The translations under genes were made by a program, and so were the position numbers. Shown here piece by piece: positions 1 through 53,650 of a stretch of 64,000 nucleotides of DNA (positions are counted from its first letter, which is position 1; every line of letters begins with the position of its first letter). This DNA is from Nitrobacter sp. Nb-311A (GTDB lineage Bacteria; Pseudomonadota; Alphaproteobacteria; Rhizobiales; Xanthobacteraceae): contig NZ_CH672417.1 of NCBI RefSeq assembly GCF_000152905.1, positions 257,585-321,584 on the forward strand. Direction: 5' to 3'. The notes below the pieces were generated by a model. That model did not search any database, was not told the DNA's origin, and saw only the letters and a list, made by a program, of their open reading frames with translations.

Positions 1-142
1 GGTGCAGATCAGCTAACAGCGCATGACGAACCTATGAGACAGCGCAACAAATTATCGATCAAGCCATGAAGCTCCGCTGTCTGTTCCCCTGAAACAGGTA
101 GCTGGGAACTTTTGGGGCGCCCGGCGCTTCTGTTCTCCAGCC

Positions 143-232
143 TGTAGCGTTTTGAGCATGAAAAGGCGCGTCAGCTCAAAATAGCGGACCACGCTTCCCT
201 GATCCTGCCAGAAGCGAAAAGACTCCAGGAGG
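143..232. repeat. diverged intergenic repeat copy
   Basis: The stretch containing GTAGCGTTTTGAGCATG and GCGCGTCAGCTCAAAATAGC resembles a decayed copy of the GCGTTTTCGAGCGAAGTGG repeat family found elsewhere in the window. It lies just upstream of the PRC-barrel gene. I see no gene in bases 1-237. Confidence 0.4.
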
Positions 233-237
233 ACGCC

Positions 238-750
238 ATGGCGACGCAAGAAAACGAAACCAGAACCTTGATCGGAAGTGACAAAGTCGAAGGGACGGCC
301 GTCTTTGGCCCCACCGATGAAAAGATCGGCTCGATCGAGCGGGTCATGATCGAAAAGACCAGCGGACGCGTGTCATATGCCGTCCTGAGCTTTGGCGGTT
401 TCCTTGGAATCGGTGACGATCATTATCCGCTACCCTGGCATACGCTCAAATACGACACCCGGCTTGGCGGCTATCGGACCGGCATAACCCTCGATCAACT
501 CCAAAAAGCCCCGAAATACCAGACTGAGAGCAACTGGAACTGGTCAGAGCCAGGCCGGACCAGCTCGGCCGTGCGGTTTTGCAGCTTTGGCCTGAACTTG
601 CGCGGGATGTTCAGGAACAGATTTTCGAGGCCGCATCGCACGACCCTGATATCCGTCGCCGCCTGGCCGTGGTGCTCCACGACCTGCATCCGAGAACAGC
701 ATTTCCGCTTCAACCCGGTTCGCTGGCGTAGTCGGGCTGAGAGTGATTGA
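238..750 (+). CDS. PRC-barrel domain protein with chimeric C-terminus
   Basis: Residues 1-100 form a PRC-barrel domain: LIGSDKVEGTAVFG, then GSIERVMIEKTSGRVSYAVL and a typical NWNW end. PRC-barrel proteins in rhizobia are small stress-associated proteins whose role is poorly defined. The start is well supported by AGGAGG seven bases upstream of the ATG. After NWNWSE the reading frame turns into Arg/Ser/Thr-rich sequence that looks like non-coding translation, while another frame of the same DNA keeps a conserved-looking peptide (see the pseudogene at 543-731). The last 65 or so residues are therefore probably an artefact of a deletion that fused two neighbouring genes out of frame. Whether the chimeric protein is stable cannot be told from sequence. 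Confidence 0.75.
   Translation: MATQENETRTLIGSDKVEGTAVFGPTDEKIGSIERVMIEKTSGRVSYAVLSFGGFLGIGDDHYPLPWHTLKYDTRLGGYRTGITLDQLQKAPKYQTESNWNWSEPGRTSSAVRFCSFGLNLRGMFRNRFSRPHRTTLISVAAWPWCSTTCIREQHFRFNPVRWRSRAESD
543..731 (+). pseudogene. remnant of a small conserved protein, fused out of frame to the PRC-barrel gene
   Basis: Read in the frame starting at 543, the DNA under the odd tail of the PRC-barrel gene encodes QLGRAVLQLWPELARDVQEQ followed by IFEAASHDPDIRRRLAVVLH and DLHPRT, ending at TAG 729-731. This has the composition of a real soluble alpha-helical protein, and I recall small alphaproteobacterial proteins of this type (recollection, not a search). No start codon or ribosome site of its own is visible, because its 5' end abuts the PRC-barrel coding region. 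Confidence 0.55.
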
Positions 751-843
751 AACCGAAACTCATCCCCACGCGCATTGAAGACGCTGCTTCGAAAACGTGG
801 TCGTGGCGGCTGCGCTCATGACAATGGGAGCGGGAGCGATGAC

Positions 844-1896
844 ATGAAGCACACGGCCGCTTTGCTTTCGATGGCGACCGGGGTTCCGCCCAATGTGTTT
901 CATCAGTCGCAAATTCTCGACGCGGCGCGATTCATCCTAGGCTCGCGATATCCGCAGTTTGAAACGCTATCCTCTCTTTTCGCCAACACCGGGATCCAGC
1001 ACCGCTACGGCGTCAAGCCAATTGAATGGTATTGCGAGCCACGTGGCTGGCCGGAGCGAACTCAAGCCTTTCTGGGCGGCGCCGAAGCATTGTTCGTCGA
1101 AGTCGCGCAGAAAGCGATGGAGCGGGCCGATCTCAGCGCAACCGACATCGACACCGTCGTTACGGTATGCTCGACCGGCATCGCTACCCCGACACTTGAA
1201 GCCCGCCTCGCCGGCAGGCTTGGCTTCCGAACCGATATATCGCGCGTACCGGTGTTTGGGCTCGGCTGCGCCGGCGGCGTAGCAGGACTGTCCATTGCAT
1301 CGCGATTGGCGCAAGCCCGGCCAGGCACCAACGTGCTCCTCGTGGTCCTCGAACTTTGCACGCTTGCCGTTCGCCACGACGAACTGACGAAGGCCAATAT
1401 CGTGGCCGCCAGTCTGTTCGGCGATGGAGCCGCCGCGGTCGTGCTGCGCGCCGGAGATGGAGGCGCCACGCGCGTCGAGGCAACCGGCGAGTATCTTTGG
1501 CCGAACACGCTCGATATCATGGGATGGCGCGTGGACCCCGAAGGGTTCGGCGTGATCTTCCAGCGCACAATTCCGGACTTTGTGACCGCACACATGAAGC
1601 CCGGCGTCATCGCCGTTCTGTCCCGGCTGGGTCTTTCGATCGACGACATCGACCGCTTCATCTGCCATCCAGGCGGTGCAAAGGTCATCATCGCGATCGA
1701 GCGCGCCTTCTCCCTCGATCAGGGAACCCTCGATCACGAACGAAGCGTTATCGCCGACTACGGCAACATGTCAGCGGCCACCGTCTTGTTTGTGCTCGAA
1801 CGCGCCCGAGCGCAGGGCCTGCCCTCGCGAACGCTCGTGACCTCGCTGGGTCCGGGCTTCACCGCAAGCTGCGTCACCCTTCGTCACGCTGCGTGA
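844..1896 (+). CDS. type III polyketide synthase (chalcone synthase-like)
   Basis: Homodimeric ketosynthase that extends an acyl-CoA starter with malonyl-CoA and cyclises it to pyrone or resorcinol products. The 350-residue length fits the family. The Cys-His-Asn triad is visible: Cys142 in VFGLGCAGGVAG, His275 in FICHPGGAK and Asn308 in DYGNMSAATVLFVLE. The GFGVIF and GPGF motifs near the C-terminus are also present. ATG 844 is preferred over an in-frame TTG at 775, because homology-like sequence (MKHTAALLSMATGVP) begins there. The stop codon overlaps the next start (GTGA), so synthase and methyltransferase-like enzyme are translationally coupled. Product unknown; an alkylpyrone or alkylresorcinol lipid is the family expectation. 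Confidence 0.9.
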   Translation: MKHTAALLSMATGVPPNVFHQSQILDAARFILGSRYPQFETLSSLFANTGIQHRYGVKPIEWYCEPRGWPERTQAFLGGAEALFVEVAQKAMERADLSATDIDTVVTVCSTGIATPTLEARLAGRLGFRTDISRVPVFGLGCAGGVAGLSIASRLAQARPGTNVLLVVLELCTLAVRHDELTKANIVAASLFGDGAAAVVLRAGDGGATRVEATGEYLWPNTLDIMGWRVDPEGFGVIFQRTIPDFVTAHMKPGVIAVLSRLGLSIDDIDRFICHPGGAKVIIAIERAFSLDQGTLDHERSVIADYGNMSAATVLFVLERARAQGLPSRTLVTSLGPGFTASCVTLRHAA

Positions 1897-2396
1897 CTCT
1901 CGCCGCTTTCATACTTGCGCTGGTTACCGTGCAGCGGCTCGGCGAACTCATCCTGTCCCGCTACAACACTGCGAGACTGTTGGCGCGAGGCGCGATCGAG
2001 ATCGCGCCGGGTCACTATCCGCTGATCATCGCGACCCACACCGCCTGGCTGGGCGCATTATGGCTGTGGGGCCGCGATCAGAATGTGAACGTCGTCGCCC
2101 TGTCGGCCTACATTTTGCTACAGGTGTGTCGCGTTTGGGTGCTCGCGACCCTCGGACCGCGGTGGACCACGCGCATCATCGTCCTGCCTGACGCGCCGTT
2201 GGTGACATCGGGACCTTACAGATATCTGTCACATCCGAACTATGCGATCGTCGCCGCGGAAATCGCAGTGCTGCCGCTCGCGCTTCATCTGTGTTTGCTG
2301 GCGCTGGTCTTCACTGGTCTGAACGCTGTGGTGCTCGGCATCCGCATTCGCGCCGAGGCCCGCGCACTTGCAATGGTCCGCGAACGGCAGCCATAA
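1893..2396 (+). CDS. isoprenylcysteine carboxyl methyltransferase-family membrane protein
   Basis: Integral membrane protein of 167 residues with four or five hydrophobic segments. The C-terminal signature of the ICMT/PEMT family is present: RWTTRIIVLPDAPLVTSGPY followed by RYLSHPNYAIVAAE. Members methylate using S-adenosylmethionine. Bacteria lack prenylated proteins, so when such a gene sits beside a type III polyketide synthase it is usually thought to methylate the polyketide product. The GTG start at 1893 overlaps the synthase stop by four bases. A longer open frame extends upstream into the synthase gene but is only its shadow. Confidence 0.85.
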   Translation: MTLAAFILALVTVQRLGELILSRYNTARLLARGAIEIAPGHYPLIIATHTAWLGALWLWGRDQNVNVVALSAYILLQVCRVWVLATLGPRWTTRIIVLPDAPLVTSGPYRYLSHPNYAIVAAEIAVLPLALHLCLLALVFTGLNAVVLGIRIRAEARALAMVRERQP

Positions 2397-2450
2397 TCCG
2401 AGAGTCTCCGCGTATTGGTCCGCCATTTTCAGAAACGCCAAGGAGCGCGC

Positions 2451-3407
2451 ATGCTGGTGAATGGAAAATGGACGTCGGATTGGCAACCGGTCCAGGCCAA
2501 GGACGAAAAGGGCGGCTTTGTCCGTCAGACGTCCAGCTTTCGCAACTGGATCACTCCTGACGGAAGCGCCGGGCCAACCGGCGAAGCTGGTTTCCCCGCG
2601 GAACGCGGCCGCTACCATCTGTATGTCGCGTTGACCTGTCCCTGGGCCTCGCGCACCCTCATTGCCCGCAAGCTGAAGAAACTCGAGGACGTCGTCTCGA
2701 TGTCCGTCGTGGAGCCGGCATTGACAGACCAGGGCTGGCGTTTCGGCGACTACCCGGGCTCCGACCGGGACGAGGTCAACGGTGCGACCTATCTGCACGA
2801 ACTCTATACACGAGCCGATCCGGCAATCTGCGGGCGCGCGACGGTCCCGGTCCTCTGGGACAAGAAGCGCAAGACCATCGTCAATAACGAATCCGCCGAA
2901 ATCGTGCGCATGTTCAACTCAGGATTCGCCGGGTTGGCGGACGAGGATGTCGATCTTTATCCGCAAGCGCTCCGTCCCGCGATCGACGCGCTCAACGACC
3001 GCATCTACCCGGCGCTCAATAACGGCGTTTACCGCGCCGGCTTCGCCACCACACAAATCGCTTATGACGAGGCCTATGACGAGGTCTTCGCAATGCTGGA
3101 CAGATTGGAAAGCTATCTGGCGGACCGCTCGTTTCTGCTCGGCGTGCCGTTTACCGAATCCGACATCCGACTGTTCGTGACGCTGGTTCGTTTCGATGCC
3201 GCCTATCACGGACTCTTCAAATGCAACCTGCGGCGCATCTCCGAATATCCCAACCTCACCACCTATCTCAAGCGTGTGCTGGATATTCCAGGGATTCGCG
3301 ACACGGTGAACATCGATCATATCAAGAAAGGATACTATTCCATCAAGTCGCTCAACCCGAATGGCATCGTCCCGAAAGGACCCGACCTCAGCGGCCTCGG
3401 CCTTTGA
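2451..3407 (+). CDS. glutathionyl-hydroquinone reductase (omega-class GST, YqjG/PcpF type)
   Basis: Cytosolic enzyme that reduces glutathionyl-hydroquinones back to hydroquinones using glutathione. The thioredoxin-fold half carries the active-site motif TCPWA with Cys63, followed by RTLIARKLKKLEDVVSMSVV. The all-helical C-terminal half includes LGVPFTESDIRLFVTLVRFD and the typical end HIKKGYYSIKSLNPNGIVP. Length of 318 residues is normal. ATG 2451 has AAGGAG six bases upstream, which decides the start over an in-frame upstream extension. It follows the polyketide synthase pair by 54 bases; whether it serves quinone-like products of that pair is only a suggestion. Confidence 0.93.
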   Translation: MLVNGKWTSDWQPVQAKDEKGGFVRQTSSFRNWITPDGSAGPTGEAGFPAERGRYHLYVALTCPWASRTLIARKLKKLEDVVSMSVVEPALTDQGWRFGDYPGSDRDEVNGATYLHELYTRADPAICGRATVPVLWDKKRKTIVNNESAEIVRMFNSGFAGLADEDVDLYPQALRPAIDALNDRIYPALNNGVYRAGFATTQIAYDEAYDEVFAMLDRLESYLADRSFLLGVPFTESDIRLFVTLVRFDAAYHGLFKCNLRRISEYPNLTTYLKRVLDIPGIRDTVNIDHIKKGYYSIKSLNPNGIVPKGPDLSGLGL

Positions 3408-3477
3408 CATGCGATTTACGTGACTTCCGGGAGGGTCGAAGCGCTGCTATCCTCAACTCCCTGGACCGCGAACATCC

Positions 3478-4131
3478 TCAGATCAGCGAAGCCACCGCCT
3501 CAAGCCCGATAATGCGCGCGAGCGCACGCACCTCCCGCTTCTGATCCTCCCGTAGCCTCGTCAACAGCGGCTGAGCTGCGACCTTTATCTGCTCGATCTC
3601 AGCGGCGCGGAGCGCAGCCTGCTTGCCCGACCCCGAGCGCCGCTCGTGGATTTTTTGGGCGGCATCCCGCAATGCGCTTTCCACGGCTGGCCAATAGGGC
3701 TCCTGCCCGGGCGTCAGTCGAAGCCTTCCTTTCAACGCGGCGATCTGCATATCGCTAAGCAGCGAATAGTCCTTCTGGACCAGCTGGTTCGCGAGTTTAG
3801 GCCGGGAGCGCGGCAACGGCGGTTCCTCGATCGGCGGCATCGATGGCGCAATCTCGGTGTTGAAGGGAGGGTCGGTTGCAACCGTCGGCCTCAGCGATTC
3901 CGACAACGCCAAATCGGCGCCGACGTCAGGAGTTACGACCTGAACCGGAAGCCTGTCTGCCTTGCGCTCGCGATTGGCTGCCGGTTCGGCCGGCTGTGCT
4001 TCCACGGACTGTGGAGACGGCGTTGCAACAAACCGAACCATCAGAACGTTGCCAGGGCCGAATATCTCCGCCAGCGCCACCCCCATGACAACGCAGCACG
4101 CAAGCGCCAGAATCGTCATCGTCCGGGTCAA
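3478..4131 (-). CDS. conserved hypothetical secreted or membrane-anchored protein
   Basis: 217 residues with an N-terminal hydrophobic segment (MTILALACCVVMGVALAEIF), then a proline-rich stretch of about 80 residues. The helical C-terminal domain contains KDYSLLSDMQIAALKGRLRL and TPGQEPYWPAVESALRD. The TPGQEPYWPAVE motif resembles LTxxQ-type periplasmic proteins and is common in Bradyrhizobiaceae hypothetical proteins (recollection). The start at 4131 is TTG with GGAG at good spacing; ATG 4119 is the alternative. No function can be assigned. It converges on the hydroquinone reductase gene. Confidence 0.75.
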   Translation of the reverse strand: MTRTMTILALACCVVMGVALAEIFGPGNVLMVRFVATPSPQSVEAQPAEPAANRERKADRLPVQVVTPDVGADLALSESLRPTVATDPPFNTEIAPSMPPIEEPPLPRSRPKLANQLVQKDYSLLSDMQIAALKGRLRLTPGQEPYWPAVESALRDAAQKIHERRSGSGKQAALRAAEIEQIKVAAQPLLTRLREDQKREVRALARIIGLEAVASLI

Positions 4132-4269
4132 AAAGGTTCTCCGTTCAGTTCACGAACGCAGCCGATTGATCCCTACAACTCGACATGAATCAAGGCTTGC
4201 CGACGCCAGACAGGGCCGGGCCGCCGTTATTCACACTGAATCTGCATTCTGGAACGCAATGGCCGGCGG

Positions 4270-4512
4270 TCAGGCCGCCAGAATATAAGCGTCCTGGATA
4301 TCGGCGACGAGTTCGGACACTTCCCAGACAGCATTTGGCGGGATCGCGTTCACGGCGACCGTCCAGTTGACGCCGCTACGGGCTTTAGGCGTGCTGACGA
4401 TGTCGAACCGCACCTCGCGGCACAGCGGATGCCTGCCAAACGCCGCGGCCACTCGCGCCTGCAATTCCTGGATGGTCGCCGGTGTTTTTCCCGGTGCGAT
4501 GTCGCCTTCCAT
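4270..4512 (-). CDS. small conserved hypothetical protein (80 aa)
   Basis: Soluble 80-residue protein beginning MEGDIAPGKTPATIQELQAR and ending ELVADIQDAYILAA. It has balanced composition and no membrane segment. AAGG lies about six bases upstream of the ATG. Mixed helix-strand pattern with GVNWTVAVNAIPP in the middle; family not recognised. It is separated from the next minus-strand gene by about 240 bases in which I see no convincing gene. Confidence 0.6.
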   Translation of the reverse strand: MEGDIAPGKTPATIQELQARVAAAFGRHPLCREVRFDIVSTPKARSGVNWTVAVNAIPPNAVWEVSELVADIQDAYILAA

Positions 4513-4753
4513 CAGCCTTGTGCCCGTTCGAACGGTATTTTTGCCTCTCGCGGGGCAGATACATACCGGTCCCCAGGACCAAGTTGTCCAATAGTGGTTA
4601 ATGAGTCGTTAATAGCGGAACCGCCGCACAGGCATTCCTCGAGCGACCAAATTCGCCGGTGGACTCGATCACGCCCTTGTAAATGATGCTCCACTGCACG
4701 CCGGGCGCAGTTGGAACACCCGCCCACGAAGCTGCTGATTCCGCCAGGCTCAA

Positions 4754-4942
4754 TCACTTGGTGCGCTTGAGTTCCTCCAGCACCTCATCAATGGTCGCAA
4801 GATGCGTTTCCACGGCTTGGCGAACCAGCGTGTAGGGCTTGGGATCGTCCGGATCGTCCGCTCTTCGAACAACAAAGCCACGTTTGAAGGCCATCGCCCT
4901 CGCCTGCCTGAATTTTTCCAGGTCATCATTGATCGTCATCAT
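4754..4942 (-). CDS. small conserved hypothetical protein (62 aa)
   Basis: Charged 62-residue protein, MMTINDDLEKFRQARAMAFK at the start and VETHLATIDEVLEELKRTK at the end, probably helical. A strong ribosome site (GGGAGG) precedes the ATG, which supports it as real despite its size. No function recognised. Confidence 0.65.
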   Translation of the reverse strand: MMTINDDLEKFRQARAMAFKRGFVVRRADDPDDPKPYTLVRQAVETHLATIDEVLEELKRTK

Positions 4943-5114
4943 TGGTCCTCCCTTCTCCGCCGTCTAAAGGCGACCTCGCCCGAAATTGCGGCCATCTATC
5001 CCAACTCTGCCCTGTTCATCAACGCAACGCTTCACGCGCAGGTGCCGACCGCGCGTCATGCGTGGCGCATGATCCGCCGATGGCTGCAAGACCGTGCGTA
5101 TGGCTCATCGACAT

Positions 5115-5711
5115 CTAGATCAGGCGGAACGCGATCACGAATCCCAGGACGATAACGACAGCCCCGATGGCCACCCAAAGGCCGAGCCGCTTTTCGATCT
5201 CATGGCGAATGGCATCACCGTAGCGATTGAGCATGATCGCGACGATGAAGAAGCGGCCACCCCGCGCGATGATCGAGCACAGAATGAACAGCCAGATGTC
5301 GTATCCGGCGAAACCCGATGTGATGGTGACGAGCTTGTAGGGAATCGGCGTCAGACCTTTGCCGATGATGATCCATGCGCCCCATTGCGCATACGACGCA
5401 CGAAACGCTTCGACCTTGTCGCCAAGTCCATAGAAATGAATGAGCCATTGGCCGACCGAGTCGTAGAGCAGCGCGCCGATCGCATAGCCAAGCACGCCGC
5501 CGGCAACCGAGGCGATCGTGCATACGGTCGCAAACACCCAGGCCCGCTTTGGCTGCGCCAGCGCCATCGGTAACAGTATGACATCAGGCGGCACCGGAAA
5601 GAACGAGCTTTCAGCGAAAGCCACGGCGGCCAAGATCCAGAACGCATAGGGCTTGTCAGCGGCGGCGATGCACCAGTTGTAGGTCGGTCTCAGCATGACG
5701 CGATCAACCAT
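5115..5711 (-). CDS. YqaA/DedA-family (SNARE-associated) membrane protein
   Basis: About 198 residues with four or five transmembrane segments. Family marks are FAESSFFPVPPDVILLPMAL near the N-terminus, then GYAIGALLYDSVGQWL, KGLTPIPYKLVTITSGFAGY and a final hydrophobic helix. The family includes lipid-flipping or membrane-homeostasis proteins related to DedA/VTT. ATG 5711 (MVDRVMLRP) or ATG 5696 (MLRPTYNW) may be used; neither has a strong ribosome site. The frame stays open further upstream, but that sequence is low quality. It is divergent from the substrate-binding protein gene. Confidence 0.85.
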   Translation of the reverse strand: MVDRVMLRPTYNWCIAAADKPYAFWILAAVAFAESSFFPVPPDVILLPMALAQPKRAWVFATVCTIASVAGGVLGYAIGALLYDSVGQWLIHFYGLGDKVEAFRASYAQWGAWIIIGKGLTPIPYKLVTITSGFAGYDIWLFILCSIIARGGRFFIVAIMLNRYGDAIRHEIEKRLGLWVAIGAVVIVLGFVIAFRLI

Positions 5712-5933
5712 CGCAACGCCGATTTGTCCATGGCTGATGCGAAGATTCGGCGGCGCCTGCACAGCGAACTGGAGGTGATGGTCGACCCGCCCATCGGTTC
5801 CCGGCGGAGTAAAAGGAAACCGCGCGCGACATATTGCAGTGGTCATCGCGCATTCAGATTGCCTCTGGTAGAGTGCCACCGGGTTACGGTCGCGTTGCGG
5901 CCCCAATCAACAAAAACTGCCGCAGTATCTTCC

Positions 5934-6995
5934 ATGCAAGCGCGTTCTATAGGTCGTCTCTGGTATGTCCTGCTTGTGCTCGTAGGCGCGGCCGGTATTG
6001 CATACCCCGGCGTTGCGGGCGGTGGGGCCGACGCCGGCGCGCCAACCCAGATCAAGTTCTCGCTCGACCGCCCGATCGATGCCGCCGTGGCTCCGGTCAT
6101 TCTGGCGTCCACCAGGGGACTATTCCGCGCGGAAGGCCTGAGTGTAACAACCATAGCCGCCACCGACGCAGCAGACGCGATTGCGCGCGTTGCGGTCGGC
6201 ACAAGCGAACTGGCCCTCGCGGATATCAACGCCCTGATCCGCTTTCGCGATCAGCCGGGCGTACCTCCGGTCAAGGCGGTGTTCGTGCTGTTCGACAAGG
6301 CGGCCTACGCCTTCATTGCGCGCAAGAGCCGGGGCATCAACAAGCTTGCCGACATCGAGGGCAAGACGGTCGGAGTCACTGACGGCGATCCTTCCATCAG
6401 GCTGTGGCCTGCGCTGGCGCGGCGGAACGGATTGCAGCTCAAGACCGTGAAGCTGCAGCAGATCGGCCCCGCCGTTCGTGAACCGATGCTGTCGGCGGGC
6501 CAGCTCGACGCCATATCCGGCCTGTCCTACCTGTCGGCGATCGACCTGCGCAATCGCGGTATCCCGGCCGACGATATCGCCGTGCTGCGATTTGCCGACT
6601 ACGGCTGCGCCGCCTACGGCAAGGCCCTGATCGTCAACCCCGAATTCGCCGCCGACAAGCCGGAGGCGGTGAAGGGGTTCGTGCGCGCGGTGATCGCCGG
6701 TCTGCGGCTCACCATCAGGGAGCCCGCGCAGGCTGTCGATGACGTGCTGACTCGGATAAATGGCGGATCACGCGCTGTCGAACTGGAACGCCTGCATGCC
6801 GTGCTGAGCGACAACATTCTGACCAGCGAGGTCAGACACAGCGGTATCGGCGGCATCGACCCGGTCCGGTTCGAGACCTTGATCGACCAGATCGCCGAAG
6901 GTTTCAAATTCCGTAATCGTCCGGCGCCCCAGGATATTTTCGACAACAGTTTCTTACCCCCGGCCAGCGACCGCAAGATCACGCAAACCGAGTAA
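5934..6995 (+). CDS. ABC transporter substrate-binding protein (SsuA/NMT1/TauA type)
   Basis: Periplasmic binding protein of 353 residues: signal peptide IGRLWYVLLVLVGAAGIAYP, then IKFSLDRPIDAAVAPVILAS and a two-lobed domain typical of nitrate/sulfonate/taurine/thiamine-precursor binders (DIEGKTVGVTDGDPSIRLWP, then DYGCAAYGKALIVNPEFAAD). ATG 5934 is chosen because the signal peptide starts there; the frame is open upstream but without signal-like sequence. No permease or ATPase of an import system lies beside it, so the transporter partner must be elsewhere. Ligand cannot be told from sequence. Confidence 0.82.
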   Translation: MQARSIGRLWYVLLVLVGAAGIAYPGVAGGGADAGAPTQIKFSLDRPIDAAVAPVILASTRGLFRAEGLSVTTIAATDAADAIARVAVGTSELALADINALIRFRDQPGVPPVKAVFVLFDKAAYAFIARKSRGINKLADIEGKTVGVTDGDPSIRLWPALARRNGLQLKTVKLQQIGPAVREPMLSAGQLDAISGLSYLSAIDLRNRGIPADDIAVLRFADYGCAAYGKALIVNPEFAADKPEAVKGFVRAVIAGLRLTIREPAQAVDDVLTRINGGSRAVELERLHAVLSDNILTSEVRHSGIGGIDPVRFETLIDQIAEGFKFRNRPAPQDIFDNSFLPPASDRKITQTE

Positions 6996-7041
6996 CCAGC
7001 GGCAAGCTGTATTCCAGCGCCTGCCTCTGATTAGATATCGT

Positions 7042-7051
7042 CCCCCCCCCC
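7042..7051. repeat. poly-C tract upstream of ndvA
   Basis: A run of ten C residues sits about 80 bases upstream of the ndvA start, in otherwise mixed sequence. Such runs are prone to slippage. Confidence 0.8.
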
Positions 7052-7130
7052 GCCCGGCGTATCCTTCATTTGCGCCGGAATGCTGCCGTTGCGATCCGCC
7101 AGAGTCTTTGTCCGATGTCGATGGTGTCCG

Positions 7131-8960
7131 ATGTCGATGGTCCGTCTTTACACGCGCGTTCTCGAATCGCTCGGCAAGGAAACCCGGCTCGGCTGGATTC
7201 TGGCCGGCGCCAACCTGCTGCTGGCGGGCGCGCAGTTCGCCGAGCCGGTGCTGTTCGGCCGGATCATTGACGTCCTCTCGGGTAATTCGGCGGCGGGCCC
7301 CTTCGGAACGGCTTCGACGTCGCCGTGGCCGCTGCTGGCGGTTTGGACGGCCTTCGGCCTGTTTACGATCCTGTGCGGCGTGATCGTCGCTCTCAATGCC
7401 GACCGCCTCGCCCATCGCCAGCGCCAGGCCGTACTGACCGGCTATTTCGAGCACATCATGCAACTGCCCCTCTCCTACCACTCCGGTACCCATTCGGGGC
7501 GATTGATGAAGGTCATGCTGCAAGGCACGGATGCGTTGTGGCGGCTGTGGCTCGGATTTTTCCGCGAACATTTCGCGGCGATGATGTCACTCATGGTACT
7601 GCTGCCGCTGTCTCTCTATATCAACTGGCGGCTGGCGATCCTTCTGTTTGCGCTCTGCATCGTGTTCACGATGCTGACGACGCTGGTGGTCCGCAGAACC
7701 TTCGACATGCAGAACGAAGTGGAAGCGCATTTCACCGATCTTTCCGCGCGAGCTTCCGACGCCCTCGGCAACGTCGCGCTGGTACAGAGCTTTGTTCGCA
7801 TCGATGCCGAGATTCAGGGCCTGCGTTTCGTCGTCGACAAGCTGCTGGCGGCGCAGATGCCGGTGCTGTCGTGGTGGGCCGTCGTCACCGTGATGACGCG
7901 CGCCTCGACCACTATCACCATTTTGGCGATCTTCACCGCAGGCATCGCGCTGAACCAGCGGGGAATGACGTCGGTCGGCGAGATCGTGATGTTCGTGAGC
8001 TTCGCCACCATGCTGATCCAGAGGCTCGAGCAGATCGTTTCCTTCATCAACAGCGTGTTCATGGAGGCGCCGCGGCTCCGGGAGTTCTTCGACGTGCTCG
8101 ATGCCGTTCCGGCGGTGCGCGACCGTCCCGACGCCGTCGATCCCGGGCGTTTGCAGGGGCTCGTCGAATTCAACGACGTGTCGTTTTCCTACGACGGCAA
8201 ACGGCCTGCGGTCGCGGATCTGTCGTTCATCGCGTCGCCCGGCGAAACCATCGCGCTTGTCGGTCCGACCGGCGCGGGCAAGTCCACCGCCGTCGCGCTG
8301 CTGCACCGGGCGTTCGATCCGCGATCCGGCGTCATCAAGATCGACGGCAGGGATATTCGTGACCTGACGCTCAGCGGTTTGCGGCGAAACATCGGCGTGG
8401 TGTTCCAGGAGCCGCTGCTGTTCAACCGCTCGATCGCGGAGAACCTCCGCGTCGGTAAACCCGACGCCACGGATGAGGAGATGCGGCTGGCCGCCGAGCG
8501 GGCCCAGGCGCTGGACTTCATCGAACGCGGAGATAAAAAATTCGATACCCATGCCGGCGAGCGTGGGCGAATGCTGTCCGGCGGCGAACGGCAGCGGCTA
8601 TCGATCGCCCGCGCGCTGCTGAAGGATCCGCCGATCCTGATCCTCGACGAGGCAACAAGTGCGCTTGATGCCGTAACCGAAACCAAGGTCAATGCCGCGC
8701 TCGACGAAGTGATGAAGGGGCGCACGACATTCGTCATCGCGCACCGGCTGTCCACCATCCGCAACGCTACCCGTATTCTGGTCTTCGAGAACGGGCGCGT
8801 GATTGAAAATGGAACCTTTGACGAACTAGTGGCGAACGGCGGTCACTTCGCCCGGCTTGCGAGAGCGCAATTCATGACGCAGGAGGGTACCCAAGTCGGC
8901 CAGCCGGCGTCGGGAACCAGCCCGGCCGTCGAAATTCGGCCCCTTTCGTTGGGGAATTAG
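7131..8960 (+). CDS. ndvA: cyclic beta-1,2-glucan ABC exporter NdvA
   Basis: Half-size exporter of about 609 residues that moves cyclic beta-glucan to the periplasm. The N-terminal membrane domain has six helices over residues 20-300. The nucleotide-binding domain has Walker [10 protein letters not shown] near residue 377, signature [16 protein letters not shown] near 481 and Walker [15 protein letters not shown]. Sequence such as [20 protein letters not shown] is typical of NdvA/ChvA. ATG 7131 ([12 protein letters not shown]) or ATG 7137 is the start; both lie in a duplicated 14-base unit (see findings). No glucan synthase gene (ndvB) is present in the window. Confidence 0.92.
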
Positions 8961-45383: not shown

Positions 45384-45878
45384 TCAGGAACTGGCGTTGA
45401 GCACGGTGACGGCGCGGCGGTTCTGGGACCAGCAGGAAATGTCGTTGCAGACCGCGACCGGGCGTTCTTTGCCATAGGAAATGGTCCGCATCCGGCCCGG
45501 GTCGATGCCGCGCGACGCAAGGAAACTACGAACGGTCTGCGCGCGGCGGGCGCCCAGCGCGATGTTATACTCGCGGGTGCCTCGTTCGTCCGCATGGCCT
45601 TCGATCGTGAAGGAATAGCGATTGTAGGTCTGCAGCCAACGCGCCTGCTTTTCCAGAGTCGTTATCGCCTGCGGCGACAGGCTGGTCTGATCGCTCTCGA
45701 AGAAAACGCGGTCGCCGACATTGACCACGAAATCCTGCTGGCTGCCCGGGGCCGCGGCGCCGGCCATCCCGCCCCTTCCGTCCATCGGATTCTTGTTGGC
45801 GCAGGCCCCCATCGACAGCGCCGCCGCAAGCACGGCAGCGAGCTTCAATCCCCGGAGGAATCGCTTCTGATCTAACAT
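45384..45878 (-). CDS. pal: peptidoglycan-associated lipoprotein Pal
   Basis: Outer-membrane lipoprotein that links to peptidoglycan and to TolB. 164 residues: signal peptide with lipobox LSMGAC (Cys26), then an OmpA-like domain FFESDQTSLSPQAITTLEKQ, FTIEGHADERGTREYNIALG, ARRAQTVRSFLASRGI and the GRMRTISYGKERPVAVCNDI end. A terminator follows. Here pal is 3.8 kb from tolB instead of adjacent to it. Confidence 0.96.
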   Translation of the reverse strand: MLDQKRFLRGLKLAAVLAAALSMGACANKNPMDGRGGMAGAAAPGSQQDFVVNVGDRVFFESDQTSLSPQAITTLEKQARWLQTYNRYSFTIEGHADERGTREYNIALGARRAQTVRSFLASRGIDPGRMRTISYGKERPVAVCNDISCWSQNRRAVTVLNASS

Positions 45879-46134
45879 TCCGGAGCCTCCACGCTCGCGT
45901 TTTCCACTGTTACCGCTCTACAGGGCGATGGTTAAGCGAACGTTCCGTCAACCTTGATGAGACGTTGCCCGACTGCATCAAATGCCATGTTTGTGAAAGA
46001 AGCGCCCGCGATGGTTAATGAGCCGCAAATATGGCGCGAGGGTGAACCGACAAACGATTTTCACAACCGCGAGATCCGGAGTGCGGCCATGCCCCCCTCG
46101 CCCATGATCCACATCGACGCAACAGATGTGGAGA

Positions 46135-46878
46135 TCAGGACCTCGGGACGATCGAGGATCGCGCGAACGGAAACGAAGACTCGAAGGGCGCGAGCATCGC
46201 CGCGCCAACTCTGCGTTCGAACAACATTCGACGCTCGAAATAGCTCGAACGAAGATACGGATAGCGGGCGAAAACCGTTTCGCGCGAGGCCGGAAAATCG
46301 ACCGCCATCAGGCAGATCGGCTTGATGAGGCCAGGATACAGGCGCGGCGGACTCAACGGCTGGTGGTTAAACAAGCGCCGGTAAAACGACCGGTGTTCGG
46401 CGCGGACGGTGGCCAGACCGAGGTCGGCATTGAAGAAGCTGCAGGCGACGAAGCATAGACGGAGTGTGATATAGGGCAATTCAGGAAATCGGCCCGCGAG
46501 TTCCGGGTCCGCCACAAAGCGGGTCGGGTCGACCATAACCTTGCCCCGATCGACCTCGGGCTGAAGATAATCGTTAAAGACATCTACCGACGGACTGAGA
46601 GGATGTTCCGGCGATGAAATGCTGAGACGGATGGAACTGGCGAGCGCGCCGTCCAGATAGACGCCGAAAATCCAGGAGTTCGGCATATCGTCGAAACGAT
46701 CGAAGATCTTGTGATCGCGGTTGGCCTCGATCGCCCCTTCATTCAGGTAGGCGCGATATCGAAGGCGGTAGATGATCTCCTTATCTGCCGGCGTTTCCAC
46801 CAAGCGATAGTCAACCCGATCGAGAAGCTCGATACCTCGGTCTGCAGGCTTGGCAATTGTCTGTGGAGCCGAACTCAT
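46135..46878 (-). CDS. N-acyl-amino-acid synthase (FeeM)-like GNAT protein
   Basis: 247 residues. The sequence LVETPADKEIIYRLRYRAYL NEGAI, then SWIFGVYLDGALASSIRLSI, KVMVDPTRFVADPELAGRFP and LRLCFVACSFFNADLGLATV resembles the FeeM/autoinducer-synthase-like GNAT group, which joins an acyl chain from acyl carrier protein to an amino acid. Assignment is from the fold pattern (RYRxY entry, SSIRL strand), so moderately sure. It is followed on the same strand by pal, and the GGDEF-EAL gene precedes it by 197 bases. A lipid-signal role coupled to cyclic-di-GMP is only an idea. Confidence 0.6.
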   Translation of the reverse strand: MSSAPQTIAKPADRGIELLDRVDYRLVETPADKEIIYRLRYRAYLNEGAIEANRDHKIFDRFDDMPNSWIFGVYLDGALASSIRLSISSPEHPLSPSVDVFNDYLQPEVDRGKVMVDPTRFVADPELAGRFPELPYITLRLCFVACSFFNADLGLATVRAEHRSFYRRLFNHQPLSPPRLYPGLIKPICLMAVDFPASRETVFARYPYLRSSYFERRMLFERRVGAAMLAPFESSFPFARSSIVPRS

Positions 46879-47075
46879 TGGAACACCCCCCGAGCCGCCC
46901 GATTCAGCCGGCGACGGAAGGTTAACAATTAGTTAATGAATTGAAAAGATAACAAAGCATTAGTGTTACCTCGTATCCCTCTCTTCTTTCATCCGCCGGC
47001 CCACAGGTTCGTCATTGCATGTCGAAATTAGAGGAATTCAAACCGGAACATAACGTGACTTGTGGGGAGTAACAT

Positions 47076-49397
47076 TCAAGCGATGGACCGGACAACCTTC
47101 ACTTTGTCACCACGCTGATGGCGTCCATGAGAGGACTCGAGCAGCTGGCGAATACGTGCCGCGGGCACCGGTCGGCTAAACAGATAGCCCTGCGCCTCCG
47201 TCACCGTGCTGTCGGCGCTGATGAGCTCGAGCTGCTCGTTGGTTTCAATGCCTTCGACGACGACGGCCATGCCGAGATCGGCGCTCAGCCTGGCCACGCC
47301 ACGCAACAGCGTCAGCGGCCGGTCCGTATCGATCCCCTCCAGAAAGGAGCGATCGATCTTGACCTTCTGAAGCGGGAAATTGTGCAGATAGCTGAGACTC
47401 GAATATCCGGTGCCGAAGTCATCAAGTGAAATCCTCACGCCCGCAGAATGCAATTGCGTCAGCGCGTCGTGCGTCCACTCCGTGTTGCGCAGCAACGACG
47501 ATTCCGTAATTTCGATTTCGAGACGATGCGCCGGAAGACCGGAAACCTCCAGCGCATAACGGACTTCGCTAAGGACGTCGCGCTGATGGAATTGCTGCGA
47601 TGAGAAGTTGACGGCGACACTGACAGCCTCCGGCCACATCATGCATTCCATGCAGGCCTTGCGCAAAATCCAGCGGCCGAGATCGAGGATGAGGCCCATC
47701 TCCTCCGCCACCGGAATGATATCCATCGGGGAGATCATCCCGCGCGTAGGATGATTCCACCGCAGCAGCGCCTCGCAGGCCATGATCCGTCCTGACCTCA
47801 AATTGACCAATGGCTGATAAAACAGCTCGAACTCTTCGTTGGCCAGCGCTTTGCGCAGATCGAGTTCGAGGACGCGTCGCCTTTCGACGGTTTCCGCCAT
47901 CTCGCTGCGGAAGAAGCAGAACGTTCCACGTCCATCCGCCTTGGCCCGGTAGAGCGCCATATCGGCGTGCTTGAGAAGGTTGTCAGCGGTGGCGCCCGGC
48001 GAAGTCAGCGCGATGCCGATGCTCGCGCCGATCTCGACAAGGTGACGATCGACCTCGTATCGCTCGGTGAGACGCTCGACGATGCGGCGGGACAGCGCCG
48101 CCGCCTCCTCCGGCGACTGAATGTTTTGCTGGAACACGACAAACTCGTCGCCGCCGAATCGCGCAACGAAATCTTCCGGGCGCAGCATTCCGCGTAGCCG
48201 GTCGGCGACAATGCACAACAGGCGGTCGCCGCAGGGATGGCCGAGCGTATCATTGATCTGCTTGAACTGATCGAGATCGATGAACAGCAGCGCCGAAAGC
48301 CGCGACCGGTCGGTCGGGGATTCCAGCAGGCGTTCGATTTCGTCGCGGAAGCTGAGCCTGTTTGGCAGATCCGTCAGCGAATCGAACCGAGCAAGATGGC
48401 TGATTCGCGCTTCCGCCTTGCGCCGCTCCGTGATGTCTTCGACCAGAACGACGGTGCCGCCGCCGGCCATCGGCTGGAATGTCCATGACAACGCCCGGCC
48501 TTGTTCCAAATCCGCGTCGGAGGTCACCATGGCGCCGGCTTGCGAATTCTCGAGCTCCGAATTGATCGCCCGTCCGTTTTCTGACGAAATCGCCCCGGCA
48601 ACCACGCAGGCCGCGATGAGCTCCGACGCACCGACGTTGCGATGAACGAAGTCGGCGGGGAGATGCATCATTTCGCCGAAGCAGTAGTTCATCACGCCGA
48701 GGCGGCCGTCGGCGTCGAACATGCATAGGCCATGAGGCATGTTGTTCAACGCAGTGTCGAACTGGCTGGCGAGCGCTGCTTCACGCTCGCGCGCAATCAG
48801 CGCGCGGACAAAGATGGCCTGCAGCCTTGTCGTGATCCTCTCGAGGCCGAGGAAATACAGCACGGTGAGAAGCGCCATCCCAATATAGTAGGGATCAGCG
48901 CGTAACATCATCGCTCCCGCCATCGGCCCGCAGGTCAATAGAATTTGGAGATGGAATATCCACGGGCGCCCGTAGGCCCGGCCCGCGCCGGCCGCTACAT
49001 ATCCCGTGGTGACCGAGATGCAAATCATGTGAGCGACGGCATCGTCGGTCATCAAAAGCGCGATCGCGCACCATGCACCAAGGGCAACTGCGTAGAGCAC
49101 CGCTCCTATCTGATAGCGGGCCTCCCAGCGCGCGGCTTCGCCGATGGTTAGATCCGAACGGCGGTTCTTGTATTTCGTCATGTCGAAGGTGCGGAGCACG
49201 CCAATCAGAACCAGAAGCACCGCGCATGGCCACAGGAGATGGTTGCCGGTCTTCAATGCGGTCATAAGCGCCGCAATCGCAGCGCAGACCGCGCCAGCGA
49301 ACATCGGCGCCGGATTCTGAAATAGGGAACCCACAAGCGCCGCATATATCGCTGGCGACATCGTATCGGTGTCGTGATGGTGGTCGGCCAACTGCAT
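47076..49397 (-). CDS. membrane GGDEF-EAL cyclic-di-GMP protein with PAS domain
   Basis: 773 residues. An N-terminal membrane part with about six helices (IYAALVGSLFQNPAPMFAGA VCAAIAALM and more) covers residues 1-190. A PAS-like domain follows (LASQFDTALNNMPHGLCMFD ADG), then GGDEF with intact RFGGDEFVVFQQ and EAL with CEALLRWNHPTRGMISPMDI and DDFGTGYSSLSYLHNF. Both active sites look intact, so it could make and break cyclic-di-GMP; which activity dominates cannot be told. It sits between tolB and the FeeM-like gene. Confidence 0.92.
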   Translation of the reverse strand: MQLADHHHDTDTMSPAIYAALVGSLFQNPAPMFAGAVCAAIAALMTALKTGNHLLWPCAVLLVLIGVLRTFDMTKYKNRRSDLTIGEAARWEARYQIGAVLYAVALGAWCAIALLMTDDAVAHMICISVTTGYVAAGAGRAYGRPWIFHLQILLTCGPMAGAMMLRADPYYIGMALLTVLYFLGLERITTRLQAIFVRALIAREREAALASQFDTALNNMPHGLCMFDADGRLGVMNYCFGEMMHLPADFVHRNVGASELIAACVVAGAISSENGRAINSELENSQAGAMVTSDADLEQGRALSWTFQPMAGGGTVVLVEDITERRKAEARISHLARFDSLTDLPNRLSFRDEIERLLESPTDRSRLSALLFIDLDQFKQINDTLGHPCGDRLLCIVADRLRGMLRPEDFVARFGGDEFVVFQQNIQSPEEAAALSRRIVERLTERYEVDRHLVEIGASIGIALTSPGATADNLLKHADMALYRAKADGRGTFCFFRSEMAETVERRRVLELDLRKALANEEFELFYQPLVNLRSGRIMACEALLRWNHPTRGMISPMDIIPVAEEMGLILDLGRWILRKACMECMMWPEAVSVAVNFSSQQFHQRDVLSEVRYALEVSGLPAHRLEIEITESSLLRNTEWTHDALTQLHSAGVRISLDDFGTGYSSLSYLHNFPLQKVKIDRSFLEGIDTDRPLTLLRGVARLSADLGMAVVVEGIETNEQLELISADSTVTEAQGYLFSRPVPAARIRQLLESSHGRHQRGDKVKVVRSIA

Positions 49398-49711: not shown

Positions 49712-51064
49712 TTATGAGAGCAGGGGTGACCATGCCGGATCAGACGCGAAACCAGGCGTAGGAACTTTCAATTCGTTGCGGCCCGAGACGTCGATCGTAT
49801 AGAGCGATGGTCCACCGGCGCCGCCGGGGTCGCGGAAGAACATCAGGACGCGGCCGTTGGGCGCGAAGGTCGGCCCCTCATTGTGAAATCCCGACGTCAG
49901 GATCCGTTCGCCTGAACCGTCCGGCTTGATGATGCCGATAGAGAACTGGCCCCCGCCTTGCTTGGTGAAGGCAATATAGTCACCGCGGGGCGACCACACC
50001 GGGGTCGAGTAGGAGCCCTCTCCGAACGAGATGCGTTGCGCCCCGCCACCGGACGCTCCCATCACATAAATTTGCGGCTTGCCGCCGCGATCCGACTCAA
50101 AACAGATGCGGGCGCCGTCCGGCGAATAAGAGGGCGACGTGTCGATCGCCGGCGTATCGGTCAGACGTGTCGTCGACTTCGAACGCAAGTCCATCACGAA
50201 CAGATTCGAATTTCCGCCCTGCTGCAGACTCATGATGATGCGTTGACCATCCGGCGCGAAACGCGGCGCGAAGGACATGCCGGGGAAATTGCCGACGATT
50301 TCACGCTGTCCGGTTTCGATGTTGAACAGATAGACCCGAGGATCGCCCTGCCCGAACTCCATGTAGGTGATTTCCTGGGTCGAGGGAGAAAAGCGCGGCG
50401 TGATCACGAGGTCGGCGCCGCGCGTGAGATAGCGCACGTTGGCGCCGTCCTGATCCATCAGGGCCAGGCGCTTGACGCGGTGCTGCGATGGCCCGCTCTC
50501 GTCGACGAACACCACGCGGCTGTCGAAGTAACCCTTCTCGCCCGTCAGGCGTTCGTAAATCTGATCCGAAATAATGTGCGCAATGCGCCGCCAGTACTCC
50601 GGCGATGTAAAATATTGCTGGCCGGCGAGTTGCTGGCCTGTTGCGACATCCCACAGGCGAAACTCGGCCTTGAGCCTTCCATCGCCCTGACGCGTCATGC
50701 GTCCGGTCACCAGCGCCTGCGCATTAATAGTCTTCCAATTGGCGAACTGCGGCGGCACGTCGATGTTGGTGATCTTTTCGATATACGCGGCCTGGTCGAT
50801 CGGCGCGAACAATCCGCTGCGCTTGAGATTGTTGGTGATAACCTTGGCGACACCGGCGCCGACCTCGTTGTCCGACGCTGAACCTCCGACAAAATTCGGA
50901 ATGGCGATCGGAAGCGGCGCGACATTACCCTCGGTGATCTGGACCCGCGCCTGACCGAGGGCTTGACGGCCGCGCAGCAACACAGCGGCCGATGCCATCC
51001 CGAAAAACATGTGTCGGCGGTTCAGGCGGAACGGCATTCTCTGCAATTCATTTCTCTCGATCAT
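49712..51064 (-). CDS. tolB: Tol-Pal system beta-propeller protein TolB
   Basis: Periplasmic partner of Pal and TolA. 450 residues. The N-terminus carries a twin-arginine-like signal ([20 protein letters not shown]), then the TolB N-domain ([40 protein letters not shown]) and a six-bladed propeller with repeats such as [40 protein letters not shown] and [17 protein letters not shown]. Start is ATG 51064; a Met ten residues later is possible. In the tolQRAB order. Confidence 0.96.
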
Positions 51065-53320: not shown

Positions 53321-53650
53321 GAGCAGTTTCCTCTCAACGCAAGATATCCCCCATCGACGCGCGGCGTGACCTCTGCCACCGCCACCGGTTTCGCAGCCAC
53401 GAAGCGCACGCGGCGTAAAAGCGCCACGGAACAAGCCGGTTGAGTCACTTGGGGGGTCCGTCCAAAGCCGGAGCTTGCATCCCCTGCCAACGTGTCAAAA
53501 CGAGGGCTAACGGCGCACCTTTACGGCTGTAACCAAACGCTAATCATGGTTAAGACCAGGTTACCAAAGAAGAATTGCGGCTATAAATCCGCGTTATATT
53601 CCAATCCTTGCTTACCGCGAACCGTGCCCGGCGGGGGCGGCGGACGTGGC

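Follow-up and report, generated by a model that had tools for sequence, protein, structure and literature searches.

N-acyl amino acid synthases of the FeeM type are known mainly from environmental-DNA clones. A surfactant-like product has been described for one such case, and in the FeeM-type synthases Nas343 and Nas354 the C-terminal domain was modelled on a c-di-GMP-binding PilZ-type protein, which already suggests a tie between these synthases and cyclic-di-GMP (c-di-GMP) (PMC4897644). A fatty-acyl signal and c-di-GMP also meet in RpfF/RpfR, the system that serves BDSF in Burkholderia and Cronobacter (PMC6361424, PMC4698668): BDSF is described as triggering the phosphodiesterase of RpfR, in which an FI domain (residues 1-95) precedes a PAS domain (residues 118-224) (PMC6361424). 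A further point of comparison is the control of LuxI by CtrA. CtrA sites ahead of autoinducer-synthase genes have been reported in Alphaproteobacteria, and the same survey extends the CtrA consensus to several (Brady-)Rhizobiaceae, whose quorum-sensing (QS) genes it located via PF00765 and PF03475 (PMC4046655).

The window, a 64,000-nucleotide stretch of Nitrobacter sp. Nb-311A, carries on its minus strand, in this order, tolB (49712..51064; TIGR02800, 478.3 bits), a membrane-PAS-GGDEF-EAL gene (47076..49397; 773 aa; Pfam PAS_7, GGDEF and EAL above cut-off), a FeeM-type N-acyl amino acid synthase gene (46135..46878; 247 aa; PF21926, 158.8 bits against a cut-off of 27) and pal (45384..45878; TIGR02802, 135.3 bits against a cut-off of 125.35). 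The profiles and coordinates bear out a sequence-only reading of this DNA, which had placed a GGDEF-EAL and a FeeM-like gene between tolB and pal in the same direction. Our open-licence literature searches turned up no description of the EAL-FeeM pair, which gives the impression of a bacterial communication circuit that has not been described. The reading that we favour, at a little better than even chances, is that of a two-gene lipid-signal module: the FeeM product would be read by the neighboring membrane-PAS-GGDEF-EAL protein, as an analogue of RpfF/RpfR with a FeeM synthase in place of the DSF synthase, and the synthase gene would be switched by CtrA.

The AlphaFold model of the synthase (pLDDT 86.3, falling below 50 in the tail at residues 224-243) supports the FeeM-like identity that had been read from the sequence: FeeM itself (2g0b) ranks first among PDB structures (Foldseek E 3e-12, TM(target) 0.83, rmsd 3.1), and in structure comparison it reaches Z 19.9 with an rmsd of 2.8 over 176 residues, the next match having Z 15.9. 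D117 (46528-46530, minus strand), with R120 nearby, probably stands at the LuxI/FeeM acidic active-site position, and both residues are invariant in alignments of 50 and of 61 FeeM sequences. The acidic residue is reported as Glu in other enzymes (Glu95 in FeeM, Glu103 in Nas354), and the more distant FeeM relatives L241, L273 and L280 have Glu at the D117 position. D117 aligns with the TofI Glu in a weak profile match (E 0.23), the best that a profile search returned; a single-sequence search of PDB chains gave no result. The enzyme thus has the PF21926 profile and the FeeM fold in common with Nas343 and Nas354 (PMC4897644), but differs from them in its Asp at the putative acidic position, in being single-domain (only FeeM scored above cut-off in the 247 residues, and no second domain, PilZ included, was detected) and in that its link to c-di-GMP lies in a separate neighboring enzyme. 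Going by profile and model, it probably makes a fatty-acid-amino-acid molecule, and the putative reaction would start from acyl-ACP and yield an N-acyl amino acid, or else a closely related N-acyl amine, which would presumably be exported.

It is very improbable, in our estimate, that the enzyme is instead an AHL-type (LuxI-like) synthase with the EAL protein as an AHL-responsive c-di-GMP enzyme. The LuxI profile PF00765 does match weakly, AHL synthases are the next fold neighbors (Z 13.6-15.9) and a Loktanella relative is annotated as an acyl-homoserine-lactone synthase; however, the PF00765 score of 19.5 bits is under the cut-off of 24, FeeM stands 4 Z units above the best AHL synthase, other GNAT enzymes (Z 15.4) match the model about as well as that synthase, and no LuxR-type gene was found among the eight window proteins scanned. 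No exosortase-like protein was named among these eight either.

The EAL protein is predicted to have 5-6 membrane helices within residues 29-190, followed by PAS_7 (217-329), GGDEF (337-491) and EAL (513-743) domains identified by Pfam. Hydropathy gives five hydrophobic segments and the structural model (pLDDT 88) six long helices ahead of the PAS domain, residues 15-218 being modelled mainly as helices that lead into a single PAS domain. A fold search with the N-terminal region scored weakly over the whole model, with a best E of 3.5e-5 and an rmsd of 18 for that match; most of the matches were PAS chains, including DosP. The GGDEF motif (48141..48155, minus strand; residues 415-419) follows by five residues an RxxD at 406-409, which we take to be the I-site pattern; among 31 relatives G415 G416 D417 E418 F419 and D409 are invariant, and R406 is retained in at least 90%. 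The EAL motif (47766..47774, minus strand; residues 542-544) is equally constant, with E542 A543 L544, N597, D659 D660, K680, E715, Q736 and the DDFGT motif invariant in the 31 relatives. By analogy with RpfR, this protein probably senses the FeeM product and alters c-di-GMP, most simply through a switched EAL phosphodiesterase; we infer both that the PAS or membrane domain senses the ligand and which way c-di-GMP changes. As in RpfF/RpfR, a gene for a fatty-acyl signal synthase lies beside one for a PAS-GGDEF-EAL protein. Judged from domain layout, the two systems differ in that the Nitrobacter synthase is a GNAT/LuxI-fold FeeM while RpfF is a crotonase, and in that the Nitrobacter receptor has predicted membrane helices at its N-terminus where RpfR has the FI domain; the CtrA-type site at the Nitrobacter synthase gene (see below) is a further difference.

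The EAL-FeeM pair is a widespread two-gene unit. In 58/60 neighborhoods of the window's family, FeeM is immediately preceded by the EAL gene, with both on one strand, and in 50/51 loci from other families of the order the two genes adjoin (49 same-strand, 1 divergent). Among 149 genomes of the window's family, 63 have FeeM and 61 have an EAL N-terminal match of at least 180 bits, all of them among those 63; at the level of the order, 63 of the 64 strong-FeeM genomes also have the EAL partner. Adjacency and co-presence thus uphold the proposal, made from the sequence alone, that the GGDEF-EAL protein and the FeeM-like synthase form a linked system. FeeM occurs without a nearby EAL partner at L208/G395, L234/G018 and Rhizobium leguminosarum L273 and on roseobacter plasmids; at L091/G029 the two genes are on separate contigs, and Bradyrhizobium erythrophlei L142 has an efflux-like insertion upstream. 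A class-wide search yielded 4 of 385 genomes, two of these from the window's family.

Such persistence might reflect genetic linkage only, with unrelated EAL and FeeM genes kept together by slow rearrangement. Many rows are of recent common ancestry, many loci within each of the families f6, f20 and f24 have flanks in common, and the two genes have separate upstream regions, all of which would fit. Yet the pair stays constant where its flanks vary: among 1829 inter-family locus pairs 53 have a flanking gene in common and eight have two or more, and among the 16 window-family loci away from tolB-pal a flanking gene is common to 6/120 locus pairs. The pair also persists with its genes convergent (Rhizobium tumorigenes) or divergent (L185), and the presence of the two genes goes together across genomes. 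We therefore regard linkage without function as most improbable.

The same loci bear on the position between tolB and pal. The gaps tolB/EAL, EAL/FeeM and FeeM/pal are 314, 197 and 256 nt, with zero overlap, and each gene of the locus has its own upstream region. Since tolQRAB and pal-cpoB have also been reported as separate transcription units in Alphaproteobacteria, R. sphaeroides and C. crescentus among them (PMC9275681), for the pair its probable place is between two operons and not within one. For comparison we took 28 genomes in which the pair is absent from tolB-pal. TolB was found in 27 of them, and 23 of the 27 loci have tolB next to pal (158-1042 nt apart, with neither EAL nor FeeM between them), the adjacency that the sequence-only reading calls normal; of the remainder, one is at a contig end and three have no pal within 1.5 kb. 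The Nitrobacter arrangement is no accident, since the order EAL-FeeM-pal recurs in 44/60 neighborhoods of the window's family: in 40 the EAL frame is intact and tolB is upstream, in three no tolB is present in the stretch examined, and in L055 the EAL frame is broken. Six of the 44 contain additional DNA: L070, L071 and L078 carry 2.8-4.1 kb of it after tolB and before EAL, and L061, L074 and L081 carry ~1.7 kb in the interval from FeeM to pal. In the EAL tree, with rows matched to loci, the copies placed at tolB-pal form one clade of 36 rows, and neither tolB nor pal occurs in the fetched stretch of 51/51 FeeM loci from other families of the order or of 14 other window-family loci with an intact pair. 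The location at tolB and pal, two genes of cell division, is thus a clade-specific placement, and the real unit is the EAL-FeeM pair.

The sequence-only reading also suggested that, through the pair, a lipid signal and c-di-GMP could be coupled to the constriction machine, here Tol-Pal; this idea is consequently not supported, and we accord it little credence. It would draw on the placement beside pal in 44/60 window-family loci, on a report from Sinorhizobium that Tol-Pal and the RgsP/RgsM network interact (PMC7327166) and on one study in Shewanella linking a thioesterase of the tol-pal cluster to c-di-GMP (PMC5479800). Against it stand the confinement of the placement to one clade, the loci with neither tolB nor pal, the different transcription units reported for tolB and pal, and the unlike elements that precede tolQ, pal and FeeM. 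Coupling by insertion into an operon we reject on the pair-free tolB-pal loci, the FeeM loci with neither tolB nor pal and the separate transcription units.

Upstream of the synthase gene lies an exact CtrA-type site, TTAA-N7-TTAAC (46921..46936, minus strand), ending 42 nt before the FeeM ATG. We scanned for this pattern, exact or with at most one mismatch, using 1865 mostly coding stretches as controls. It is kept before FeeM across families, being exact in 65/111 loci (controls, 2/1865) and within one mismatch in 99/111 (controls, 40/1865), while an exact site precedes the EAL gene in 3/106. The one-mismatch count is weak alone because such matches also precede tolQ (35/38), pal (19/44) and EAL (18/106); the exact matches carry the case. 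By base counts, the fixed element before tolQ is GGTAAC-N6-TTAACC and that before pal GCGCCA-N-ATT..ATTAAC; both differ from that of FeeM, and CtrA as a shared regulator of the three genes is unsupported. A sigma-70 scan found no site. The Nitrobacter genome has a ctrA gene (NCBIfam NF045991, RespRegCtrARhodob, 421.7 bits against 350), and its product is a candidate for binding at the FeeM site, a role that we infer from sequence.

The conserved site points to lipid signaling. CtrA would switch the synthase gene separately from the receptor gene, and signal output might thereby track the cell cycle or growth phase. An acyl-signal synthase gene with an upstream CtrA consensus is common to this locus and to CtrA-controlled LuxI (PMC4046655). 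In Nitrobacter, however, the synthase belongs to the FeeM family and its neighbor is a c-di-GMP enzyme rather than a LuxR regulator. Some of the (Brady)rhizobial QS genes in the CtrA/LuxI survey might be FeeM genes of EAL-FeeM pairs.

Lipid signaling is also indicated by alternation of the synthase with an RpfF-like gene. In FeeM-less Rhizobiales the same EAL family usually pairs with an RpfF-like crotonase, a relative of the DSF synthase, several loci being convergent like rpfF/rpfR: such a gene lies within 569 nt in 17/23 FeeM-less loci and near EAL in 0/198 FeeM loci. Genome-wide (E 1e-20), an RpfF homologue was found in 0/49 chosen FeeM genomes, the window's included, and in 6/9 chosen FeeM-less genomes, including the genome from which the query came. 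Against the NCBIfam RpfF equivalog model these partners score 101-236 bits with a cut-off of 550 (9/10 proteins listed); against NF006452, 8/10 are above cut-off.

A competing view holds that the EAL protein regulates FeeM, with local c-di-GMP or direct contact controlling how much is made of an N-acyl amino acid used as a surfactant or envelope lipid. The PilZ-type domain modelled in Nas343 and Nas354 (PMC4897644), the fusion of FeeM to a cNMP-binding domain in G876 and the inhibition of RpfF reported for the FI domain of RpfR (PMC6361424) would accord with it. However, the Nitrobacter FeeM is without PilZ or any second domain, and the alternative partner RpfF comes from a family of signal synthases whose chemistry is unrelated; this agrees better with a common receptor than with a common lipid product. 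We rate such regulation as unlikely, though worth keeping in view.

If the module signals as proposed, the swap of synthase between FeeM and RpfF in evolution would have changed the signal chemistry while the c-di-GMP output stayed constant. Tentatively, and as a possibility that we hold at somewhat under even chances, these loci could represent an undescribed Rhizobiales signaling class, Bradyrhizobium and Nitrobacter included, with an N-acyl-amino-acid autoinducer that is neither AHL nor DSF, a CtrA-timed FeeM and a membrane-PAS-GGDEF-EAL receptor of a family swapped between FeeM and RpfF synthases. Legume symbionts and nitrifiers would then have a lipid quorum-type signal beyond AHL and DSF, connected both with c-di-GMP and with CtrA, a regulator of the cell cycle; FeeM-type synthases would gain a biological role, and a single c-di-GMP receptor family would be able to swap its signal synthase. 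The prediction is open to direct test in culturable Bradyrhizobium, Afipia and Rhodopseudomonas.

Members of the EAL family at L236, L238, L297 and L301 have neither a FeeM nor an RpfF-like partner, and two beta-proteobacterial relatives of the N-terminus are without EAL, and neither has a crotonase for a neighbor. On Bosea and Methylobacterium plasmids, all four that were examined repeat the EAL/RpfF-like pairing. In the EAL tree partner changes are few, and the group marking the change has a support of 89 or 99 in two trees; two beta-proteobacterial sensor cyclases, when added, fell among the RpfF-partnered rows on a long branch.

On the minus strand of this 4.1 Mb genome, the genes occur in the order tolQ, tolR, tolA (assigned from position and length only), tolB, a 773-aa membrane-PAS-GGDEF-EAL protein (hereafter EAL; 47076-49397), a 247-aa FeeM-family protein (46135-46878), pal and ybgF. 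The sequence-only reading that a GGDEF-EAL and a FeeM-like gene of the same strand separate tolB from pal is borne out by this order. The intergenic distances are 314 nt (tolB-EAL), 197 nt (EAL-FeeM) and 256 nt (FeeM-pal), and no overlaps hinting at an operon are seen among these four genes.

Profile searches recovered the N-acyl amino acid synthase family for the FeeM protein (PF21926; 158.8 bits, cut-off 27), with LuxI (PF00765) falling under its cut-off; its closest named match among the best 80 of 266 confirmed stretches is from Nitrobacter vulgaris (92% identity). The FeeM fold anticipated earlier was recovered in both structural searches: a model predicted from 61 related sequences (mean pLDDT 86.3) retrieved FeeM (2g0b) first in the PDB using Foldseek (E 3e-12, 16-17% identity) and with another aligner (Z 19.9; 176 residues at rmsd 2.8), the latter placing AHL synthases next (Z ≤15.9). 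All 50 family sequences compared share R40, D60, R84, D117 and R120, and the protein is likely to be enzymatically active. As D117 lies opposite a Glu of the LuxI relative TofI, albeit in a weak match (E 0.23), and Glu occupies the equivalent position in the more distant FeeM relatives L241, L273 and L280, this clade appears from the alignments to carry Asp where Glu is expected. Glu103 of Nas354 (FeeM Glu95) is reported as required for haemolytic and surface-active phenotypes (PMC4897644).

FeeM is found in 63 of 149 Xanthobacteraceae genomes, in a single copy in each. Among 60 neighbourhoods fetched from this family (excluding the window itself and genomes G018 and G115), 58 have EAL immediately upstream in the same orientation, or 57 when counting intact frames, the EAL frame of L055 being broken; of the other two, one has EAL on a different contig (L091) and one stops at a contig edge (L098). 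G115 has, by coordinates, both genes near each other on one contig, and G018 has FeeM without EAL. A named set, namely the best 80 of the 266 confirmed stretches, which overlaps these neighbourhoods, has the adjacent pair in 73. In two of the others (L118, L119) the EAL N-terminus is in a separate, more distant frame, and in four (L123, L128, L134, L146) FeeM is near a contig end. In the seventh, L142 from Bradyrhizobium erythrophlei, an RND metal-efflux-like cluster and a sigma-factor-like ORF (988-7845; functions named by eye in the 8 kb covered) replace EAL upstream of FeeM. Across the Rhizobiales, FeeM is present in 69 of 347 genomes, 64 of these with at least 198 bits. Outside the family there are 51 strong loci, and in 50 of them an EAL orthologue adjoins FeeM (49 on the same strand, divergent in L185; none in L208), so that the co-occurrence of the two genes does extend beyond this family; neither tolB nor pal was detected in any of the 51, within up to ~8 kb per side and less at contig ends. 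EAL N-terminal matches of at least 180 bits are found in 61 of 149 family genomes, every one FeeM-positive, and the EAL N-terminus in 79 of 347 order genomes, among which are 63 of the 64 with strong FeeM.

The flanking genes behave differently. At least one is common to 53 of 1829 between-family locus pairs and at least two to 8; for the 120 pairs formed by the 16 Xanthobacteraceae loci away from tolB-pal the corresponding counts are 6 and 1. Sharing is frequent within the families f6, f20 and f24 compared for their flanks (53/105, 65/66 and 62/78 pairs). Hence, the FeeM-EAL pair, not the wider locus, is the conserved unit. It is kept on one strand in a Shinella plasmid and convergently in a Rhizobium tumorigenes plasmid, whose EAL protein is more distant (120.8 bits). 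A Rhizobium leguminosarum plasmid (L273, NZ_CP140867.1) has FeeM without an EAL partner; there FeeM is directly 3' of JetB/JetC-like (Wadjet-type) genes (51-5669). Outside the order, genome G816 has a FeeM relative one ORF from a GGDEF-EAL protein lacking the N-terminal match.

Within the family, pal is downstream of FeeM in 44 of 60 loci: 40 have the intact pair between tolB and pal, three lack tolB in the stretch covered and one (L055) is broken. Six contain extra DNA, between tolB and EAL (L070, L071, L078) or FeeM and pal (L061, L074, L081). In the EAL tree 36 of the 44 form one clade, the other eight having been omitted as near-duplicate, short or broken rows. Twenty-eight comparator genomes furnished 27 tolB loci (TolB was not found in G054), and in 23 of these pal is 158-1042 nt from tolB with neither EAL nor FeeM between. 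This single clade and the tolB-pal adjacency in the comparators fit one insertion of the pair between the tolQRAB and pal-cpoB units, which several Alphaproteobacteria are reported to transcribe separately (PMC9275681). Accordingly, the suggestion that the pair couples a lipid signal and c-di-GMP to the Tol-Pal envelope constriction machine is not supported.

EAL also occurs in FeeM-less genomes, 16 in the order and 9 in the family (128-153 bits in the latter). We collected 23 FeeM-less EAL loci, from 22 of these 25 genomes together with L235, whose genome has its own FeeM elsewhere. An RpfF-like gene is at most 569 nt from EAL in 17 of them, and none is near EAL in L235, L236, L238, L292 (contig edge), L297 and L301. 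No RpfF-like gene is beside FeeM in 198 FeeM loci, drawn from two sets overlapping in genomes. Genome-wide, at E 1e-20, RpfF matches were obtained in 0/49 FeeM genomes versus 6/9 FeeM-less ones, all hand-chosen, with one of the six being the source of the query. The RpfF-like identity follows from matches to NF006452 above cut-off in 8 of 10 proteins scanned, RpfF crystal chains within the four best PDB matches for two members, and a pattern search finding both glutamate-containing motifs in 15 of 17; these glutamates we take to be the catalytic ones. The proteins are below the cut-off of a stricter RpfF equivalog model. An EAL-crotonase pair is seen in 4/4 Bosea and Methylobacterium plasmids opened and is absent from both beta-proteobacterial records opened. 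On the EAL tree the FeeM label requires 3 changes versus 21.3 in shuffles, and the RpfF rows group together with four rows lacking a partner (support 89; 99 with the plasmid and beta-proteobacterial rows added). Four RpfF-paired loci (L293, L295, L302, L304) have a second, shorter crotonase-like ORF on the opposite side of EAL (233-248 aa, 60-71 bits).

The EAL protein shows PAS_7, GGDEF and EAL domains (Pfam) and five hydrophobic segments in residues 30-165; its N-terminal model has six long helices followed by one PAS domain (pLDDT 88, pTM 0.68). In 31 relatives the GGDEF, EAL and DDFGT motifs are invariant, and both catalytic domains look intact. Upstream of GGDEF is an RxxD motif, the inhibitory-site pattern, with D409 invariant and R406 conserved in at least 90% of these relatives. 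Because the Rhizobiales EAL family neighbours either RpfF or FeeM, its simplest shared role would be in sensing: the EAL protein would read the acyl product of the neighbouring synthase and then set c-di-GMP. By analogy, BDSF switches on the phosphodiesterase of the PAS-GGDEF-EAL receptor RpfR, and the rpfF and rpfR genes are convergent (PMC6361424). The main rival is that c-di-GMP controls the FeeM synthase, for which there are two precedents: the C-terminal domain of Nas343/354, modelled on a c-di-GMP-binding protein (PMC4897644), and, for cyclic-nucleotide control, a cNMP-domain fusion of FeeM (L266, genome G876). Product sensing and such control of the synthase could also operate together, as in RpfR. 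In open-licence PMC text, no one paper was found to combine FeeM with GGDEF, RpfF with Rhizobiales and c-di-GMP, or N-acyl amino acid with c-di-GMP, PilZ and acyltransferase; by title and abstract start, none among the matches listed in broader searches of that text concerns the FeeM/EAL pair.

A pattern match identified an exact TTAA-N7-TTAAC upstream of FeeM (46921-46936). Over the 520 nt upstream of a conserved codon, the exact site is present at 65 of 111 FeeM loci and a site with at most one mismatch at 99, as against 2 and 40 of 1865 control stretches, mostly coding, from the same loci. Gene by gene, in the 300 nt upstream of each ORF, the exact site precedes FeeM in 39/60 and 23/51 loci (within and outside the family) and EAL in 2/57 and 1/49, with none before pal (0/44), tolB (0/41), ybgF (0/43) or tolQ (0/38); in FeeM-less loci it precedes EAL in 0/22 and RpfF in 3/17. 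Allowing one mismatch, these become 53/60 and 41/51 for FeeM, 11/57 and 7/49 for EAL, 19/44 for pal, 35/38 for tolQ, 0/41 for tolB, 0/43 for ybgF, and 2/22 (EAL) and 12/17 (RpfF) in FeeM-less loci. The 84 FeeM upstream sites agree with the CtrA consensus TTAA-N7-TTAAC (PMC4046655; PMC7200025), their flanks being weakly conserved, and the Nitrobacter genome has a CtrA gene (421.7 bits, cut-off 350). Since the whole genome contains 28 strand matches to the exact pattern and 16 to its reverse, a lone site is weak proof, and it is the conservation that points to a putative CtrA site before FeeM. CtrA sites are reported upstream of autoinducer-synthase genes in some Rhizobiales and roseobacters (PMC4046655).

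The CtrA-type matches before tolQ and pal were rejected as parts of different fixed elements. That upstream of pal (46010-46037) is GCGCCA-N-ATT..ATTAAC, conserved in relatives (18 loci), and that upstream of tolQ (53549-53565) is GGTAAC-N6-TTAACC, conserved in 35 loci, both unlike the FeeM site. The tolQ element may be where an OmpR-family regulator, for example CenR, binds, although the reported CenR motif differs, being TGA-N8-TGA (PMC9275681).

Other contexts were seen among FeeM relatives. The fusion in L266 (1456-2391; G876:C6) joins the FeeM domain to a cNMP-binding domain in 311 aa, another cyclic-nucleotide link of the family. A distant genome of the phylum (L280, G1099:C1:1717292-1721488) has two FeeM copies ~3.3 kb apart on opposite strands. 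FeeM-family synthases adjoin a PEMT/ICMT-like methyltransferase gene in a Loktanella salsilacus plasmid (L275, 3468-5193; NZ_CP072995.1) and a SAM-methyltransferase gene in Sulfitobacter plasmids (L274, 3491-4708; L276, 3194-4672). According to PMC11580390, previous studies offered no synthase candidate for N-acyl alanine methyl esters; the FeeM and methyltransferase genes of these plasmids are candidates for this role.
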